Shown one piece after another: positions 34,012 to 44,018 of a DNA stretch of 64,000 nucleotides (position 1 is the first letter of the stretch; every line of letters begins with the position of its first letter). The stretch spans positions 317,109 through 381,108 of the forward strand of contig CCFG01000011.1 in NCBI GenBank assembly GCA_000752215.1, read 5' to 3'. The notes beneath the pieces are model-generated. The model had not been told where the DNA came from. It did no database searches and saw only the letters and a list, made by a program, of their open reading frames with translations. This DNA is from a bacterium MS4 (lineage in GTDB: Bacteria; Bacillota; Clostridia; Oscillospirales; Acutalibacteraceae). A program made the position numbers and the translations under genes.

Positions 34012-34017
34012 GTATTA

Positions 34018-34249
34018 ACACAATGATAAAGGAAGTAACCTTTTTCCCCGCTTATTTCAGAGAGGGCATGTCAGCGGCTGAAAGCATGCCTGTAAGTCAT
34101 AAAAGGCGAAGTTCCCTTTGGAGTGGCGCGGCTGAACCTTTTCAGTAGGCTGCGACGGCAGGCACCGTTAAAGGCTGACGAGTAATTAATTAGGGTGGTA
34201 CCACGGAGCTTTCGTCTTCGTCCCTTGCCGGGGCGGAGGCGTTTTTTAT
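34018..34249 (+). promoter_or_regulatory. T-box riboswitch leader, phenylalanine-specific
   Basis: Classic T-box leader. It has an AGAGAG element early in stem I, the conserved T-box AGGGTGGTACCACGG at 34192-34206, and a terminator at 34213-34247 (stem CGTCTTCGTCCC with GGGGCGGAGGCG, then T6). A TTC at 34112-34114 in the expected specifier region fits tRNA-Phe, as does the downstream pheS-pheT. Uncharged tRNA should pair with the leader and favour the antiterminator. Confidence 0.92.
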
Positions 34250-35325: not shown

Positions 35326-37704
35326 ATGAATCTTTCAATGAGATGGTTAAAAGAATTCGTAACGCTTGACGATATGCCGATCCGCGATTTTACAGAAGCG
35401 ATGACCATGAGCGGCTCCAAGGTCGAGGGCTGGGAGACCGAAGGCAGCGAAATTGAAAATGTGATCATGGGAAAGGTGCTTTCTCTGGACAAGCATCCGG
35501 ACTCCGACCATTTATGGATTACGAAGATCGACACCGGTTCCGGGGAACCGATTCAAATCGTTACCGGTGCGCAGAATTTAAAGGTGGGCGACCTGGTGCC
35601 GGTCGCAATGGACAATTCCCTTCTGCCCGGCGGCAAAAAAATCAAAAAGGGCAAGCTTCGCGGCGTGGAAAGCAACGGAATGCTCTGTTCCCTCAGCGAG
35701 CTGGGGCTGACAAAGCACGACTTTCCCTATGCGATTGAAGACGGTATTTTCGTGATACAGGAGGACTGCGCGCTTGGCGAGCCCGTGTGCAAGGCAATTG
35801 GGTTCGACGACACAAAAGTCGAATTTGAAATTACGTCCAACAGACCGGACTGCTTTTCCGTGATCGGCCTTGCCCGGGAAACGGCGGCGACCTTCCATAA
35901 GTCCTTCAGCGTACACACGCCGGCTGTAAAGGCGGGAAACGGCTCCTGTAAGGGAATGCTCGACGTAAAGGTGGAAGCTCCGGACCTGTGCTCCATTTAT
36001 TCTGCCCGTGTGGTCAAGAATGTCCGCGTGAAGCCCTCCCCGCGCTGGATGCGTGAAAGGCTGCGCGCCATGGGTGTGCGCCCGATCAACAATATCGTCG
36101 ATATCACAAACTACGTCATGCTCGAATACGGCCAGCCGATGCACTCCTTTGATCTGCGTTTTATTGACGAGGGTAAAATTCGTGTGCGCCGTGCGCAGAA
36201 CGGGGAAACCATCACTACGCTGGACGGCGTCGACCATAAGCTGACCGCGAAGAATCTGGTGATCGCGGACGCCCGCAAGCCGATTGCCATTGCAGGAGTG
36301 ATGGGCGGCGAATACAGCGGAATTGTCGACGACACCACCACGATCGTGTTTGAGTCGGCATGCTTCAACGGCGCTTCCGTTCGCACGACCGCCAGAGATC
36401 AGGGAATGAGAACCGACGCGTCCTCCCGCTATGAAAAGGGGCTGGACCCCAACAACTGCCTTCCCGCGCTGGAACGCGCCTGTGAACTGGTGGAGCTGCT
36501 GGACGCCGGAGACGTGCTTGACGACAGGATTGTTGACGACCATTCCTCCGGCGAACGTACCAGAACCCATCTGGACGCGGACTGGATCAACCGCTTCCTG
36601 GATATTCAGCTGACCGCGGACGAGATGAAAGCGATCTTAAGCAAGCTGGAATGCGAATTCGACGGCGACGATATTCTGGTACCGACCTTCCGCCCCGATC
36701 TGCAGCATAAAGCCGACATTGCCGAAGAAATCGCAAGATTTTACGGTTACAATAAGATTCCGGGCACCGCGCTGGGCGGCGGCGCGCAGGGGAAATATTC
36801 CGCAAGACAAAAATTCGAGCGCACCATCAACGACACCATGCTCGCGCTGGGTGCCAGTGAGATCATGACGTATTCGTTCATCAGCCCGAAATACTACGAT
36901 AAGATCTTAATGCCGGCCGACTCGCCGCTGCGCAAGTCGATTACGATTTCCAATCCGCTCGGCGAGGATACCAGCATTATGCGTACCACGGCCCTCCCCT
37001 CCATGCTGGAGGTCCTTTCACGCAACTACAACAACAGAAATGCGGACGCGTGCCTGTTTGAGCTTGCCAGCGAGTATATCCCGACTTCGGAGGACAAACT
37101 GCCGATTGAAAAAACCAATCTGATCGTTGGAATGTACGGCAATCACGCCGATTACTTTACGGCAAAAGGAATGGCAGAGCAGATTTTGGAAAAACTTTGC
37201 GTATACGGCTGGGAAATCGAGGCTTCTTCCGAAGAGCCCAGTTATCACCCGGGGCGCTGCGCCGTGCTGAGCATTGACGGAGAACGTCTGGGCATGATCG
37301 GGGAAATTCATCCGAAGGTCGCCGAAAATTACGGCATCGGCGACAGAGTCTACTGCTTTTCGCTGGATGTAGATAAAATGTATGAATACGCGAAGTCTGA
37401 AAAGACGTATACTCCCCTTCCGAAATTCCCCGCGGTGACCCGCGACCTTGCTCTTCTCTGCGACGACAGCACTCCCGTGCTGACGCTTGAGAAAGCCATT
37501 ATCCGCGGCGCCGGAAACCTGCTGGAAAAAATCAAGCTCTTTGACGTTTATAAGGGTGAGCAAATCGATTCCAGCAAGAAGAGCGTCGCGTTCAGCGTTA
37601 CCCTGCGCTCTGCAGACAGCACACTGACGGATGAGCGCATTGCCGGAACGATGAAAAAAATCATGAAGGAGCTTGAAAAGGCCGGCGCTATTTTACGTTC
37701 ATAA
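35326..37704 (+). CDS. pheT: Phenylalanyl-tRNA synthetase beta subunit
   Basis: Structural and editing subunit (792 residues). In order: an N-terminal tRNA-binding OB domain (about residues 40-150, with HPDSDHLWI), the B3/B4 editing domain in the middle (IAGVMGG near 325), the B5 domain and catalytic-like core, and a C-terminal ferredoxin-like anticodon-binding domain (PKFPAVTRDLALLCD to DERIAGTMKK). Normal length, good AGGGGG-type site, coupled to pheS. Confidence 0.97.
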   Translation: MNLSMRWLKEFVTLDDMPIRDFTEAMTMSGSKVEGWETEGSEIENVIMGKVLSLDKHPDSDHLWITKIDTGSGEPIQIVTGAQNLKVGDLVPVAMDNSLLPGGKKIKKGKLRGVESNGMLCSLSELGLTKHDFPYAIEDGIFVIQEDCALGEPVCKAIGFDDTKVEFEITSNRPDCFSVIGLARETAATFHKSFSVHTPAVKAGNGSCKGMLDVKVEAPDLCSIYSARVVKNVRVKPSPRWMRERLRAMGVRPINNIVDITNYVMLEYGQPMHSFDLRFIDEGKIRVRRAQNGETITTLDGVDHKLTAKNLVIADARKPIAIAGVMGGEYSGIVDDTTTIVFESACFNGASVRTTARDQGMRTDASSRYEKGLDPNNCLPALERACELVELLDAGDVLDDRIVDDHSSGERTRTHLDADWINRFLDIQLTADEMKAILSKLECEFDGDDILVPTFRPDLQHKADIAEEIARFYGYNKIPGTALGGGAQGKYSARQKFERTINDTMLALGASEIMTYSFISPKYYDKILMPADSPLRKSITISNPLGEDTSIMRTTALPSMLEVLSRNYNNRNADACLFELASEYIPTSEDKLPIEKTNLIVGMYGNHADYFTAKGMAEQILEKLCVYGWEIEASSEEPSYHPGRCAVLSIDGERLGMIGEIHPKVAENYGIGDRVYCFSLDVDKMYEYAKSEKTYTPLPKFPAVTRDLALLCDDSTPVLTLEKAIIRGAGNLLEKIKLFDVYKGEQIDSSKKSVAFSVTLRSADSTLTDERIAGTMKKIMKELEKAGAILRS

Positions 37705-38428: not shown

Positions 38429-39688
38429 CTATTTCCCGATATCCCGCCGGTAATGAGCACCCTCAAACCGGATTTTGCCAGCGCAGGCATAAGCCTTTTC
38501 AAGCGCCTCGTCCAAAGTGCCGCCCAGCGCGGTGACCCCCAAAACACGGCCGCCGTTGGTGTAGAACCGACGGTCCCGATACAGCGTTCCCGCGTGGTAG
38601 ACGGTGGCGCCCTCCACCTGTCCGTAATCGTCAAGGCCGGAAATTTCGATTCCTTTGGCATAGCTTCCGGGATATCCGCCGGAAGCCATCACGACACAGG
38701 CACAGGCTTCCCGACTCCATTCGATCGGCTGGGAGTCCAGCCGTTCGTCGACGACCGCCTCCAGAATCTCTACGAAATCGGTCTTCAGCCGGGGCAGGAC
38801 CACCTGTGTTTCCGGATCGCCGAAACGGCAATTGTATTCGATCACCTTCGGCCCGTCCTTCGTCAGCATCAGACCGAAATACAGGCATCCCTTGAACGTT
38901 CTGCCTTCCCGGTTCATCGCCTCTACGGTCGGCAGGAAGATGGTCTTCATGCACAGCTCCGCCATTTCTTCGGAGTAATACGGGTTCGGGCTGATTGTGC
39001 CCATTCCGCCGGTATTCAGGCCCTTGTCCCCGTCCAGCGCTCGCTTGTGGTCTTTGGATGAAACCATCGGTTTCAGGCATTTTCCGTCCGTGAACGCCAG
39101 CACCGAAACTTCCGGCCCGGTAATAAATTCTTCCACCACCACTCGGTTGCCGGAGGCTCCGAACACCTTATCCTCCATGATCGTTTTTACCGCGTCGTGC
39201 GCCTCGTCGTCATCGGCGGCTATAATCACGCCCTTTCCCAGCGCAAGACCGTCCGCCTTGACGACGATGGGATATTGGTTATTTGCCCGGATATATTCCA
39301 TCGCGGCACGCGGGTCGTCAAAGACCTCATATCCCGCGGTGGGAATATGATATTTTTTCATTAGATCCTTGGAGAATACCTTGCTGCTTTCAATCACAGC
39401 CGCGTTGGCGCGAGGGCCAAACGCACGGATTCCAGCCGATTCCAGCGCGTCCACCATCCCGGCGGCAAGCGGGTCGTCGGGAGCGACAAAAACCAGGTCG
39501 ATCCGGTTCTCTTTTGCAAACCGGACCACGCCGTCGATATCCGTTACCGGGATATCCACACACTCGGCGTCCCGTGAAATTCCGCCGTTTCCGGGAGCGC
39601 AATAGACCTTTTCCACCTTTGGGCTTTCCTTGATTTTGCGCACAATGGTATGCTCGCGGCCTCCCCCGCCGATGACCAGTATCTTCAT
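38429..39688 (-). CDS. purD: Phosphoribosylamine-glycine ligase (GARS)
   Basis: ATP-grasp enzyme (419 residues) of purine synthesis step 2. The N-terminus is MKILVIGGGGREHTIVRK. ADGLALGKGVIIA forms the ATP-grasp region, and SPNPYYSEEM and EYNCRFGDPETQVVL carry substrate and metal contacts. It is monofunctional. It is the last gene of the purine operon, 23 bases after purH. Confidence 0.96.
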   Translation of the reverse strand: MKILVIGGGGREHTIVRKIKESPKVEKVYCAPGNGGISRDAECVDIPVTDIDGVVRFAKENRIDLVFVAPDDPLAAGMVDALESAGIRAFGPRANAAVIESSKVFSKDLMKKYHIPTAGYEVFDDPRAAMEYIRANNQYPIVVKADGLALGKGVIIAADDDEAHDAVKTIMEDKVFGASGNRVVVEEFITGPEVSVLAFTDGKCLKPMVSSKDHKRALDGDKGLNTGGMGTISPNPYYSEEMAELCMKTIFLPTVEAMNREGRTFKGCLYFGLMLTKDGPKVIEYNCRFGDPETQVVLPRLKTDFVEILEAVVDERLDSQPIEWSREACACVVMASGGYPGSYAKGIEISGLDDYGQVEGATVYHAGTLYRDRRFYTNGGRVLGVTALGGTLDEALEKAYACAGKIRFEGAHYRRDIGK

Positions 39689-39711
39689 ATTATCCGCTCC
39701 TATATGTCTTA

Positions 39712-40890
39712 TTAATGGTGGAACAGCCTCATGCCGGTAAAGGCCATGGCGATTCCGTATTTGTTGCAGGTATCAATGACATTGTCGTCACGGATGGAAC
39801 CGCCCGGCTGCGCGATATATTTCACGCCGCTTTTGTGGGCGCGCTCAATATTGTCCCCGAACGGGAAAAAGGCGTCCGAACCCAGCGCGACATCCGTTAA
39901 CGTATCCAGCCAGGCGCGTTTTTCCTCACGGGTAAGCGGTTCCGGCTTCTGCGCAAAGAAATTCTCCCAGATTCCGTCCGCCAGAACGTCCATGTAATCG
40001 TCGGATATATATACGTCAATAGTGTTGTCGCGGTGGGGGCGGCGGATTCCTTCCTTAAATTTCAGCCCGAGCACCTTCGGGTGCTGGCGCAAATACCAGA
40101 TGTCCGCTTTATTTCCCGCCAGACGGGTACAGTGGATGCGGGACTGCTGCCCCGCGCCGACACCGATCACCTGCCCGCCTTTCACGTAGCAAACGGAGTT
40201 GGACTGCGTGTATTTCAGGGTGATCAGGGAAATCAGCAGATCGCGCTCAGCGCTTTCGGGAATTTCCCGATTCTCCGTTATGACATTGGAAAGCATGTTG
40301 TTGTCGATCAGGATCTCATTTCTGCCCTGCTCAAACGTAATGCCGAAAACGTCCTTATGCTCGACAGGAGCGGGCCTGTAGTCCGGCTGAATCGAGACAA
40401 TGTTGTAGCCGCCCTTGCGCTTGGATTTCAAGATGGCAAGCGCTTCCTCCGTATAGCCCGGAGCAATGATCCCGTCCGAAACCTCGCGTGCGATCAAGGT
40501 CGCCGTTTCCCTGTCGCAGATATCGGACAGGGCGATCCAGTCGCCGTAGGAAGACATTCTGTCCGCTCCCCTGGCCATAGCGTACGCGCTGGCAAGCGGG
40601 GAAAGCACGAGGTCGTCAACAAAATAAATCTTTTTCAGCGTGTCGGACAGCTCGCACGCAACCGCGGCGCCCGCGGGGCTGACATGCTTAAAAGAGGCGG
40701 CGGCGGGAAGCCCCACGGCTGCTTTCAGCTCTTTGACCAGCTGCCAGCTGTTGAAGGCGTCCAGAAAATTGATGTAGCCCGGTTTTCCGTTCAGCACCTC
40801 GATCGGAAGCTCGCTTCCATCCTGCATGAAAATGCGCGACGGCTTCTGGTTCGGATTGCAGCCGTATTTTAAAGTAAGCTCATTTGACAT
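39712..40890 (-). CDS. purH: AICAR formyltransferase (PurH without cyclohydrolase domain)
   Basis: 392-residue protein that corresponds only to the transformylase part of PurH, which makes FAICAR from AICAR and 10-formyl-THF. It has the segments AASFKHVSPAGAAVA, KYTQSNSVCYVKGGQ (conserved Lys and Ser), GAGQQSRIHCTRLAG and SDAFFPFGDNIERA. The N-terminal MGS-like IMP cyclohydrolase domain of normal 510-residue PurH is absent. The adjacent upstream gene supplies a different cyclohydrolase. Confidence 0.92.
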   Translation of the reverse strand: MSNELTLKYGCNPNQKPSRIFMQDGSELPIEVLNGKPGYINFLDAFNSWQLVKELKAAVGLPAAASFKHVSPAGAAVACELSDTLKKIYFVDDLVLSPLASAYAMARGADRMSSYGDWIALSDICDRETATLIAREVSDGIIAPGYTEEALAILKSKRKGGYNIVSIQPDYRPAPVEHKDVFGITFEQGRNEILIDNNMLSNVITENREIPESAERDLLISLITLKYTQSNSVCYVKGGQVIGVGAGQQSRIHCTRLAGNKADIWYLRQHPKVLGLKFKEGIRRPHRDNTIDVYISDDYMDVLADGIWENFFAQKPEPLTREEKRAWLDTLTDVALGSDAFFPFGDNIERAHKSGVKYIAQPGGSIRDDNVIDTCNKYGIAMAFTGMRLFHH

Positions 40891-40905
40891 TTCAGCGCCC
40901 TCCTG

Positions 40906-41613
40906 TTAATCGTGGTTTTTGTTGATGATTCTGGTTTCCGTCAGCCCGGTTTTCAGGTTGATGAAACGGGTAAACAGAGAAACCTTATTTTCTTCAGACA
41001 GGTTTTCCCAGAGCTTCTGCGTAAAATGGTCAATCTGGCCGGAAATACCGACCAGCGTCGGCTCGCCCTCAAAGGAAGGAAGGGGATTGCCGTCTCCCTG
41101 ATAAGTATGGATAAAATGCCCTTCTCCGCTGACCGGCGAGGAATATTCATAGAAAAAACGCTGCGCGGAGGCCGGATTTCCGTTTGCGCTTTTCAGAATG
41201 GACAGCCGATAGCTTCCGTCCGCTTCCACAATACCGGAAACACGGGGCGTAAAATTCGGCCCGTCCGGTTCAAAGGTACGCGTGCGCAGAGCGGACTCAA
41301 AAGTCTTTCCCGCCTCTAAAAATTCATAGACCGTGTCGGTCTGGTCGCCGTTTGTCACAATGGTGGTCCCGCCGAAAACCCTGACCGGCGAATAGATAAT
41401 CAGGGAAGGATCGCTCAGCTTGTCCGGGTCGAACGCCTGTGTGCGAATTCCTTCGCCGTCCTCCATAAAGACTCGGTTGCGGCTGTTCTCACTGCGCCCC
41501 ATGATAAAATAGGCAATCACGGCGTTTTTTCCGTCCTCGCTCCTGCCGAGAATGATCCCGCGCCCCGGATACGCATTGGACGACAGATTGCTTTCAATAT
41601 TCTGTATTTCCAT
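40906..41613 (-). CDS. purO: IMP cyclohydrolase, PurO-like
   Basis: 235-residue protein matching the archaeal-type IMP cyclohydrolase family (Ntn-hydrolase fold), which closes FAICAR to IMP. Features are SSNAYPGRGIILGRSEDGK at the N-terminus, VIAYFIMGRSENSRNRVF and the HTYQGDGNPLPSFEGEP segment. It sits 15 bases upstream of the truncated-form purH, so the two-gene pair replaces bifunctional PurH. The symbol is by family, not by experiment. Confidence 0.88.
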   Translation of the reverse strand: MEIQNIESNLSSNAYPGRGIILGRSEDGKNAVIAYFIMGRSENSRNRVFMEDGEGIRTQAFDPDKLSDPSLIIYSPVRVFGGTTIVTNGDQTDTVYEFLEAGKTFESALRTRTFEPDGPNFTPRVSGIVEADGSYRLSILKSANGNPASAQRFFYEYSSPVSGEGHFIHTYQGDGNPLPSFEGEPTLVGISGQIDHFTQKLWENLSEENKVSLFTRFINLKTGLTETRIINKNHD

Positions 41614-41615
41614 GC

Positions 41616-42245
41616 TCAGTCCTCCTTAATGACGGTTCTTCCGTCAGCCACTTCAACTCTGCCTTCGCAGAACAGCGAAACCGCTTTGGGCAGCAGCTTC
41701 CATTCCGCCTGCTCCATCACCCTGCGCTGAAGGGTTTCCGGCGTATCGCCCGGCAGAACCTCCACCGCCTTTTGCAGAATAATCGGCCCTCCGTCGCAGA
41801 CCTCGTTGACAAAATGCACGGTCGCCCCCGTTACCCTGACTCCCTTCGTAAGCGCGGCCTCATGGACCTTCAGCCCATAGAAGCCTTCTCCGCAGAAGGA
41901 AGGAATCAAAGCCGGATGGACATTGATAATTCTGTTTTCATAGTGCCGGACAACCTTTTCGCTGATAATGGTCATAAAGCCAGCAAGGACGACGAGATCG
42001 ATTTCATACCGGCTCAGAATTTCCAGAAGGGAACGGTCGTAGTCCTCCTGCGCCGTAAAACTCTTTCGGAGCAGGATTTCCGTAGGAATACCCGCTTTTT
42101 CTGCGCGCTGCAGGGCAAAAGCATCTGCCCTGCCGGATACGACAAGCGCCAGCTTTCCGCCGCTGATCTCGGACCGATTCCGGGCATCAATCAGCGCCTG
42201 CAGATTTGTTCCGCCGCCGGAAACCAGAACAGCGATGTTCAGCAT
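41616..42245 (-). CDS. purN: Phosphoribosylglycinamide formyltransferase
   Basis: 10-formyl-THF-dependent GAR transformylase (209 residues), step 3 of purine synthesis. It shows [16 protein letters not shown], the [11 protein letters not shown] segment, the catalytic [11 protein letters not shown], and [19 protein letters not shown] with the conserved catalytic His and Asp. It overlaps purM by 7 bases. Confidence 0.96.
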
Positions 42246-43273
42246 AGGATGACACCTTCCCCGCCGGAAACCACGTTTCCGATCACATAGGCATACTCAC
42301 CCATGGAATTCAGTTCGACGACCGCGGTATTGGCCTGCTCTTTGGAGACGACCATGCACATGCCGATCCCCATGTTGAAGGTGTTGTACATTTCGCGCTC
42401 AGGGATATTCCCCTGCCTCTGCATCATGGAAAAAACCGGCAGCTTCGGCAGGGAGGCCAGCTCGATCTTGGCCGTCGTATCGGGCTTGAGCATACGCGGA
42501 ATATTTTCAAAGAATCCGCCGCCCGTGATGTGGGAGACCGCTTTGATGCCGACCTTTTCCATCAGCGCCAGCACCGGCTTTACATAAATTTTAGTCGGAG
42601 TCAGAAGCTCTTCCCCAAGGGTATGGCCAAATTCATTGATCTGCATATTGATATTTTTCTCGCTGATATTGAAAATTTTACGGACCAGCGAAAAGCCGTT
42701 GGAGTGAACGCCGGAGGACTGCAGCCCGATGATCGCGTCTCCGACCTCAATTTCAGACCCGTCAATGATACGGTCCCTGTCGACCATTCCGACGGAGAAA
42801 CCCGCCAGGTCGTATTCGTCAACGGGATAAAAGCCGGGCATTTCCGCCGTTTCCCCGCCAACCAGCGCGCAGCCGGACTGCACACAGCCGTCCGCGACAC
42901 CGGACACGATCTGCGCAATCCTTTCCGGATAGTTTTTCCCTACAGCGAGATAATCCAGGAAAAAGAGCGGCGTTGCCCCGCAGCAAACGACATCGTTGAC
43001 GCACATTGCCACACAGTCGATCCCAATCGTGTCATGCTTGTCCATTAAAAAAGCGATTTTCAGCTTTGTGCCGACGCCGTCCGTGCCGCTGACAAAAATC
43101 GGCGTTTTCATCCCGGAAAGATCCGGCTGGAACAGCCCGCCAAACCCGCCAATTCCCGAAACCACGCCCGGTATTTTGGTGCGGGCCACATGGTTTTTCA
43201 TCAATTCGACCGCTTTATATCCGGCGGTAACGTCGGCTCCGGCCGCTTTATAACTATCACTGAAACTTTTCAT
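42239..43273 (-). CDS. purM: Phosphoribosylformylglycinamidine cyclo-ligase
   Basis: ATP-dependent AIR synthetase (344 residues), step 5. It shows [34 protein letters not shown] and [14 protein letters not shown], then [15 protein letters not shown] at 43273 follows GGGAGG by 7 bases. The frame is open to 43330, but that longer start reads through the upstream gap. It lies 22 bases after purE. Confidence 0.95.
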
Positions 43274-43295
43274 GTCCGATCCTCCCAATATTTTC

Positions 43296-43802
43296 TCACA
43301 GTTTCTGAACCTTCGCCTGCAGCGCCTCATCCTTCTTTGCGACGCCCTCCGCCATTGACTGTTTCATTTCCCGCAGCTTTGCGGCCAGCGTTTCGTCCGA
43401 AAGGGCCAGCATCTGCGCCGCAAGAATCGCGGCGTTATCCGCTCCGTCAATCGCCACGGTGGCAACCGGAATCCCGCTCGGCATCTGCACCGTCGCCAGC
43501 AGGGCGTCAAGCCCGTCGAGGGTGGAGGACTTGACCGGAATGCCGATGACCGGCAGGGTGGTGTGCGCGGCAAGCACGCCAGCCAGATGTGCCGCCTTCC
43601 CTGCCGCCGCAATGATTACTCCAAATCCGTTCTCAGCGGCGGAACGGGAAAATTCCGCGGCCGCCTGCGGCGTTCTGTGCGCGGACATCACATGCACTTC
43701 CATCGGGATTCCAAACGCTTTCATCCGCTTCACCGCAGCCGAAACGACCGGGAAGTCACTGTCGCTTCCCATGATGATCGCTACTTTTTTATCTGCCATC
43801 AT
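43296..43802 (-). CDS. purE: N5-carboxyaminoimidazole ribonucleotide mutase
   Basis: Class I PurE (168 residues) that isomerises N5-CAIR to CAIR. It shows [22 protein letters not shown] and GAAHLAG-type [22 protein letters not shown]. Two tandem ATGs follow GGAG. I chose the first at 43802. The same frame is open upstream to an ATG at 43877 that overlaps the stop of a leader ORF, which would add 25 residues encoded by the attenuator. First gene of the purine operon. Confidence 0.94.
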
Positions 43803-43834: not shown

Positions 43835-43870
43835 TAAAAAACAGGCTGCACCATGAGATGGCACAGCCTG
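43835..43870 (-). terminator. Terminator within the purE leader (attenuator)
   Basis: Minus-strand hairpin with outer arms CAGGCTG / CAGCCTG, an internal 2-base mismatch and inner CCAT/ATGG pairs, followed by T6. It lies between the promoter and purE, so transcription of the operon must read through it or be relieved. Confidence 0.85.
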
Positions 43871-43876
43871 AAGCCA

Positions 43877-43957
43877 TTATAACATCCGGAATATTGGCGC
43901 AGCTTGACAGTAAACAATTCCAGTTCCCTTTAACCTACGAACGGAAGATACTGTCAT
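43877..43957 (-). CDS. Possible 26-residue leader peptide of purine operon
   Basis: ATG at 43957 is 6 bases after GGAGGGG, a strong ribosome site. It encodes MTVSSVRRLKG and 15 more residues, ending MLTAA-like at a TAA that overlaps an ATG in the purE frame (TAATG). The stem arm TGACAGTA includes the start codon, so structure and translation would compete. No run of one amino acid is evident. It could be chance. Confidence 0.35.
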   Translation of the reverse strand: MTVSSVRRLKGTGIVYCQAAPIFRML

Positions 43958-43989
43958 TGCATTCCCCTCCGACAACACATAATGTATTT

Positions 43990-44018
43990 ATTGTAGGTGA
44001 TTCCGACGATAAATTCAA
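43990..44018 (-). promoter_or_regulatory. Sigma-A promoter of purine operon
   Basis: Minus-strand TTGAAT (44013-44018) and TACAAT (43990-43995), 17-base spacer. Transcription should start near 43983, at the base of the leader rod. Confidence 0.7.

Follow-up and report, generated by a model that had tools for sequence, protein, structure and literature searches.

The closest described system to the leader considered here is that of the E. coli pyrBI operon, in which attenuation works by tight coupling (PMC5021804) together with pausing of the polymerase (PMC4824070, PMC5021804). A terminator is reported to lose almost all of its function if placed several bases behind a translated gene (PMC4824070). 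For elemental pauses, a consensus of G-10, Y-1 and G+1 has been described (PMC12288461, PMC10268239), with -10G and -9G both named in PMC10268239, and most of these pauses are considered short-lived (PMC12288461). In B. subtilis, terminators are reported to be generally close to stop codons and transcription to run away from translation (PMC7858274). By inference, clostridia might also show runaway transcription with terminators near the stops.

We analysed a stretch of 64,000 nucleotides from a clostridial genome (in the following the window) and consider it fairly probable that the leader in front of its purE gene is a ribosome-coupled transcription attenuator that works like the pyrBI leader, with a purine signal as the likeliest input. 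Coupled attenuation as such is a known kind of regulation, and what would be new concerns the gene, the lineage, the conserved elemental pause and the rod.

The gene purE (43296..43802, minus strand; Pfam AIRC, 6e-62; start codon picked by eye) encodes the AIR carboxylase and is the first gene 3' of the attenuator. According to Pfam and the list of open reading frames, it is followed downstream on the same strand by purM (42239-43330), purN (41616-42245), an IMP cyclohydrolase-like gene (40906-41613), an AICAR transformylase gene (39712-40890) and purD (38429-39688), the genes after purE spanning 38429..43330. The operon possesses separate IMP cyclohydrolase-like and AICAR transformylase genes (39712-41613, minus strand) and no single fused PurH. 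The upstream neighbour of the leader is a gene for an SPFH/Band 7 protein (Pfam).

Promoter-like sites are located at 43990..44018 on the minus strand, namely a -35 element TTGAAT (44018-44013), a 17-nt spacer and a -10 element TACAAT (43995-43990). The consensus scan found two such pairs in 501 bases, with 0.8 expected, and TACAAT is common to the nine related loci displayed, two of which repeat the leader of another. From the -10 element, a transcription start at about 43984/43983 is predicted, in agreement with the start near 43983 that an earlier note on this DNA had proposed. The strong terminator before purE, also proposed there, was recovered by folding and by the scan as an intrinsic terminator hairpin of 13 bp (43842..43870, minus strand), which is followed by T6 (43841-43836) and represents the attenuator.

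Between promoter and terminator, there is an element that the earlier note had overlooked: a Shine-Dalgarno (SD) sequence GGAGGGG (43964..43970, minus strand), whose GGAGG is invariant in eight aligned sequences of the genus, followed by a leader ORF (uORF) of 26 codons plus TAA with its ATG at 43957 (43877..43957, minus strand; MTVSSVRRLKGTGIVYCQAAPIFRML). The stop of this uORF ends 6 nt before the terminator stem. We scanned both strands of the window for an SD match of at least 5, an ORF and a stop at -12 to +22 nt of the stem of one of 311 terminator-like hairpins (-9 kcal/mol or better), and this leader was the sole combination returned. The uORF stop overlaps an ATG (TAATG, 43877-43875, minus strand) that begins a frame without stops across the terminator, in phase with purE. 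This overlapping start has no visible SD sequence and is absent in the relative L003; the overlap is probably due to chance.

By DNA similarity, the leader was found in nine of the 11 genomes of the genus and in four of 200 genomes of the family, with the own genome counted in both. One of the four family matches (L005; blastn, 39 nt, E = 0.004) was taken as chance. The leader of L019 equals that of the genus member G470, and named loci of this kind suggest that the genus is close to Caproiciproducens and the order Oscillospirales. The first set for comparison comprised 170 leaders, namely those of 77 of 80 loci (the three others are short upstream), 90 from a second purE search (with a purE match in 272 of 297 genomes), the window and two relatives; L086 repeats the window. 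Loose rules classified 104 of these leaders as uORF-like. Thirty were removed by hand, seven as duplicates and 23 as judged spurious, for instance ZTP leaders or frames within coding genes (two of these 23, L020 and L103, may be real), which left 74 leaders or 68 nonredundant ones. An automatic selection for the frame test took 62 of 154 nonredundant leaders. A second set of 59 leaders was fetched after the predictions had been written; five were redundant, and of the remaining 54, 21 were testable, since ten had no terminator and 23 no start with a strong SD sequence. In a rough tally of 149 leaders, 56 contained a uORF, 16 were ZTP-like by sequence pattern and 77 had neither detected, with uORF leaders occurring in nine families. 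The design of uORF, terminator and pause-like motif recurs before purE in related genomes.

In the frame test, starts were picked blind to the stops, according to the strength of the SD sequence and with ATG slightly favoured, and a stop was counted if it fell within -25 to +22 nt of the 5' arm of the terminator. Of the 62 leaders, 54 had their first in-frame stop at the terminator, compared to 11 and 12 for the two other frames. The second set, for which the predictions preceded the fetching, gave 19 of 21 versus 2 and 4. These counts support the view that the uORF is maintained and that its stop is placed at the terminator. An exception is the genus member L181 (1395-1518, minus strand), whose leader ORF continues through the terminator, with no stop before it.

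As terminators generally lie near stop codons in B. subtilis (PMC7858274), a short distance between stop and terminator is just partly special, and the internal control with ordinary ORFs matters. Of 61 uORFs (distances taken over by hand from the frame test), 52 had their stop end inside the stem or no more than 6 nt before it, compared to 35 of 96 ordinary ORFs from these loci. With the limit set to 2 nt, which excludes the leader of the window with its 6 nt, the counts were 41 of 59 and 29 of 96. In this comparison, the control consists of long ORFs chosen from the stop side and the uORFs were chosen from the start side, and some of the control hairpins may be no real terminators. An ORF with an SD sequence and a terminator could also be an ordinary small-protein gene that lies before purE by chance, and the 35 of 96 ordinary genes that end this close to a terminator or overlap it would be in line with that. 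Yet the peptide is hardly shared among the leaders, whereas the position before purE, the stop placement and the pause motif are. There is also little room for a promoter of purE behind such a gene: the gap from terminator to purE has a median of 38.5 nt in the 68 leaders and holds a promoter-like pair in nine of them, compared to 61 of 68 with such a pair upstream of the uORF. We regard the small-protein gene as very improbable.

The leader peptides have 18-49 residues, only 46 of 2278 pairs share a 4-mer, and no runs of a single codon were seen by eye in either leader set. Therefore, what matters seems to be the act of translation and not the peptide. A classical attenuator of the trp type, in which the ribosome stalls at codons for amino acids that are purine precursors and thereby switches alternative hairpins, would equally combine a leader ORF with a terminator. 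The peptides are modestly enriched in glycine (180 versus 120 expected) and likewise in Phe, Lys, Ala and Cys. This type of attenuator is nevertheless highly unlikely, because in addition to the lack of codon runs and of shared peptides, neither terminator arm showed complementarity clearly above that of shuffles in 74 leaders (median p 0.46 and 0.34; p ≤ 0.1 in 12% and 15% of the leaders; transcription starts of L003 and L011 set by hand), which is as expected for steric blocking of the terminator. The leader of the window itself shows complementarity to the 3' arm at p = 0.04, and this is weaker in the relatives L003 (0.14), L004 (0.32), L019 (0.37) and L011 (0.86). Inspection by eye suggested another local hairpin in the window (CTGGAATTG/CAATATTCCGG) as an alternative, which was dropped since, again by eye, it is mostly lost in L004 and L178. 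The region before the terminator appears A-rich, with an A fraction of 0.31-0.35 from -15 to -1.

Apart from its terminator, the leader is predicted to fold into a long rod (43875..43984, minus strand; single-sequence fold). The first bases had been described as complementary to a segment about 100 bases later, and indeed CATTATG (43984-43978) pairs with TATAATG (43881-43875) as stem P1. It is followed by P2 (43972-43967/43891-43886), P3 (43961-43958/43901-43898) and P4, the perfect 8-bp stem of the earlier note, formed by TGACAGTA (43956-43949) and TACTGTCA (43912-43905). The large central bubble likewise appears in the predicted fold as a big internal loop. The fold of 151 nt including the terminator has a z-score of -4.2. 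As the rod without the terminator reaches just z = -1.2 for the window sequence alone (mean -1.05 over 74 leaders), its support comes from the comparison of leaders: the predicted pairing of the 5' end with the last 40 nt before the terminator is 14.0 versus 7.5 in shuffles in the 68 leaders (Wilcoxon p = 1e-10) and 12.7 versus 7.0 in the further 21 leaders (p = 0.002), p-values that are optimistic because the leaders are mutually related. Individually, 30 of 68 leaders show this closure at p ≤ 0.1. These data support a conserved closure of the predicted rod across leaders. Covariation is barely visible within the genus, where the stems, including that of the terminator, are mostly invariant; one of 30 predicted pairs has changed on both sides, and this pair lies within the terminator.

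RNAalifold on the genus alignment paired the bases around the SD sequence differently from the single-sequence fold, and pairing of the SD sequence is barely above that of shuffles (0.73 versus 0.68, p = 0.011). Sequestration of the SD sequence was rejected as the main role of the rod in view of this slight excess.

A rod with an internal bubble resembles 6S RNA, and a second 6S RNA processed upstream of purE had been named as a real alternative. This proposal was not supported: the leader gave no match to RF00013 at E ≤ 10, another 6S gene is present in the same genome (C17:732779, 47.2 bits, just above the cut-off of 46.4), and the rod appears to enclose an SD sequence and a maintained ORF, whereas a 6S RNA is noncoding. 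We consider a second 6S RNA extremely improbable.

By eye, the leader had matched none of the purine, ZTP and PRPP riboswitches, and in the covariance-model search no Rfam 15 family matched it at cut-off; at E ≤ 10 there were chance-level matches only, for example an overlap with the ToxT thermometer (E = 3.6). Across the window, the only Rfam match at cut-off is a T-box leader (RF00230, 109.7 bits) at 34014-34228 on the plus strand, and the gene for the phenylalanyl-tRNA synthetase beta chain starts at 35326 on the same strand. Nineteen other loci had no Rfam family at cut-off; the remaining one of the 20, L001, corresponds to the 6S gene. A purine riboswitch was not detected in the own genome at E ≤ 0.001. 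A ZTP riboswitch precedes purE in eight of 20 related loci scanned, several of which had been chosen for their ZTP look. The own genome contains a ZTP riboswitch as well (L182; C17:62124-62208), located upstream of a pyruvate-formate-lyase-like gene, so that this genome combines ZTP sensing with the purE leader. Four loci from Herbinix and a soil relative (L036, L068, L072, L075) have a sequence of approximately GCCGATATCTTGGGAG...TATCGGC in common, roughly 50-120 nt before purE. By eye this tail resembles a ZTP aptamer, and no Rfam family matches there at cut-off. The occurrence of ZTP riboswitches at this position and the conserved closure of 5' and 3' ends would suit a metabolite-binding riboswitch with the rod or the common motif as aptamer. 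Against it stand the lack of an Rfam family at cut-off, a motif around which no local hairpin was found and an ORF that seems to be maintained through the rod, and we judge such a riboswitch quite improbable. Thus, from the undescribed riboregulator proposed earlier, there remains an attenuator leader before a purine operon which matches no Rfam family at cut-off and of which we found no description; the riboswitch part was not supported, as the motif search returned just a linear pause-like sequence.

This motif emerged from a search of the region from start codon to terminator in 81 leaders, seven of which were added by hand. Expectation-maximisation returned t.TGCGcacA (width 10) and gGG.cTTttTGCa (width 13), with the best sites in all three frames. 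An elemental pause has the form GGnnnnnntgYG, with T-3 and G-2. The likeness was recognised after the motif search and then tested as a fixed pattern. In the window, the putative pause element (43898..43908, minus strand; motif statistics) has G-10 at 43908, T-3, G-2 and C-1 at 43901-43899 and G+1 at 43898, and it lies 28 nt before the stem, compared to a median of 21 nt in 51 motif leaders.

Within the 62 nt that precede the terminator, 51 of 68 leaders contain the pattern G-10 N6 T G Y R, versus 16.5 ± 3.4 in shuffles (maximum 30 in 100), but further upstream in these leaders it is about as frequent as expected (17 versus 15.3). It was found in 12 of 97 ordinary terminators and in 22 of 94 purE leaders that have a terminator but do not belong to the uORF set, a group that may include some overlooked uORF leaders. 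In the second set, the pattern is present in 14 of 21 leaders (5.2 ± 1.8 in shuffles, maximum 11 in 200) and its GG form in 13 of 21 (versus 1.6). The strict motif is absent from 17 of 68 and 7 of 21 leaders. The spacing of the G is sharpest at -10 (z = 10.3), with z = 5.9 at -11 and values of 2-4 at several other positions. Since the motif is spread over all three uORF frames (24/14/13), it should act at the level of the nucleic acid. Taken together, the counts support a pause-like motif that is conserved and position-specific. Tandem pause-like motifs (such as CGGGCATTCGTGCA and CGGGCATCGGTGCA) were seen before the purE terminator in L190, L204, L217, L223, L225 and L237 (family f11) and in L206 (f12).

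Two other readings of the motif were rejected, namely a local hairpin that presents it, as there is no excess of pairing around it (3.31 versus 3.52 pairs, p = 0.82, n = 59), and a dyad or operator, as positions in the palindrome register do not covary (z = -0.55; z = 2.7 and 2.3 in two shifted registers). The folding of RNA 5' of the pause slightly exceeds that of shuffles, and the effect is largest for RNA cut at -12 (difference -1.2 kcal/mol, t = -3.4). In the tests for a pause hairpin ending at -11, the constraint was not imposed on the folds (in one of them, on 858 of 1020). These tests measure only the folding of RNA that ends there, so that the better folding near -12 is a weak hint at a pause hairpin.

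At +1, the 68-leader set has A 32 and G 23, versus 8.6 and 8.9 in shuffles (C 6 versus 7.3, T 7 versus 9.5). The second set has A 12, G 4, C 2 and T 0, and here the enrichment concerns A only, with G+1 at 4 versus 2.8; the window has G+1. A purine at +1 is already part of earlier reported pause logos (PMC10268239) and is alone no proof of purine sensing, so that a purine effector is a proposal.

We infer from these elements that translation of the uORF, pausing, blocking of the terminator by the ribosome and a purine nucleotide signal act together. Transcription would start near 43984, and the polymerase would copy a strong ribosome-binding site and the 26-codon ORF before it meets the elemental pause site at C-1/G+1 (43899/43898), 28 nt before the terminator stem. 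While the polymerase dwells there, a ribosome on the uORF could catch up and follow it to the stop 6 nt before the stem, where it would keep the hairpin unfolded and allow readthrough into purE. If the polymerase is fast or the uORF is not translated, the ends of the leader would zip into the rod, the terminator would fold and transcription would stop; the rod might also limit late ribosome entry. Ribosomes proceed at about 15 codons/s and the polymerase at about 45 nt/s. At such rates, a ribosome and a polymerase that leave the pause together should reach the stop and the terminator at about the same time. Since a purine is added next at the pause and purines are the product of the operon, the likeliest signal is low ATP or GTP, which would prolong the pause and increase readthrough into purE. 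The leader thus probably responds to how much of the purine triphosphate required at +1 is available. As in a pyrBI-type system, there is a leader ORF with a ribosome-binding site, its end is close enough to the terminator for blocking by a ribosome, and no antiterminator hairpin is needed.

The main rival is a uORF attenuator that senses translation instead of the speed of the polymerase, either through initiation, for instance via formyl-Met-tRNA and hence 10-formyl-THF, or through the supply of ribosomes. PurN and PurH also use 10-formyl-THF. A uORF with a strong SD sequence, a stop at the terminator and no regulatory codon run would fit this equally, and a leader ORF of the folate gene fthC has been proposed to act via the initiator tRNA (PMC11109978). 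However, sensing of translation leaves the conserved and frame-independent pause-like motif unexplained, and we hold it to be unlikely.

In its full form, the attenuator would be a purine counterpart of pyrBI that is present in several families of one order, with a conserved elemental pause, ATP or GTP as the next nucleotide and a catch-up of the ribosome that converts purine supply into purE readthrough; we put this forward tentatively, as a possibility that falls somewhat short of even odds. If true, the leader occupies the place where related genomes put a ZTP riboswitch before purE, and it requires coupling of transcription and translation in organisms in which runaway transcription may be common. 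Purine synthesis would then be under the control of a widespread attenuator without regulator protein or aptamer, which would also offer a natural test of ribosome control over RNA polymerase in Gram-positive bacteria thought to be uncoupled. A clear regulatory role for a conserved elemental pause would be remarkable as well, as most are considered too short-lived for regulation (PMC12288461). In the literature on purine leaders, we found no description of a uORF attenuator before purE among open-licence papers, a weak negative since the search term purE also matches 'pure'; none was seen in passages of PMC6429828, PMC8632094, PMC11109978 and PMC2965389 either.

Several described systems share part of this design. 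The ZMP/ZTP riboswitch (RF01750) precedes the same gene in related genomes, as seen in the partly preselected loci above, but it is based on an aptamer and was not found in the purE leader of the window by the Rfam search. The fthC candidate of Streptococcus combines a uORF and a terminator before a gene of one-carbon/folate metabolism, but gene and genus are different and the relevant section of the source mentions no pause motif (PMC11109978). The tlrB and vmlR leaders of B. subtilis are examples of polymerase pausing in Firmicute leaders, which in tlrB gives time for translation of the leader peptide; they differ in being antibiotic-dependent, in their NusG-dependent TTNTTT pauses and in controlling resistance genes (PMC12288461). 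Salmonella mgtM is a short ORF with an unconserved peptide, in which conserved nucleotides affect transcription-translation coupling and ATP is the signal (PMC3641672), as ATP might be here. In mgtM, it is high ATP that favours readthrough, and the mechanism includes alternative stem-loops (PMC3641672), whereas in the purE leader low purine would be expected to promote readthrough and no alternative hairpin was found. The pyrL leader of E. coli pyrBI is the most similar, as a leader ORF that reaches the terminator, with upstream pausing of the polymerase, before a nucleotide-synthesis operon and with a ribosome that blocks the terminator (PMC5021804, PMC4824070), although for purE the pausing and the blocking are deduced from sequence. 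The terminator of pyrBI is located inside the leader ORF (PMC4824070), as in L181, while the ORF of the purE leaders usually ends near the 5' arm. The purE leader further differs from pyrBI in that it belongs to a purine operon, occurs in clostridia, appears to form a long 5'-3' rod and carries a putative consensus elemental pause in place of a U-rich tract.
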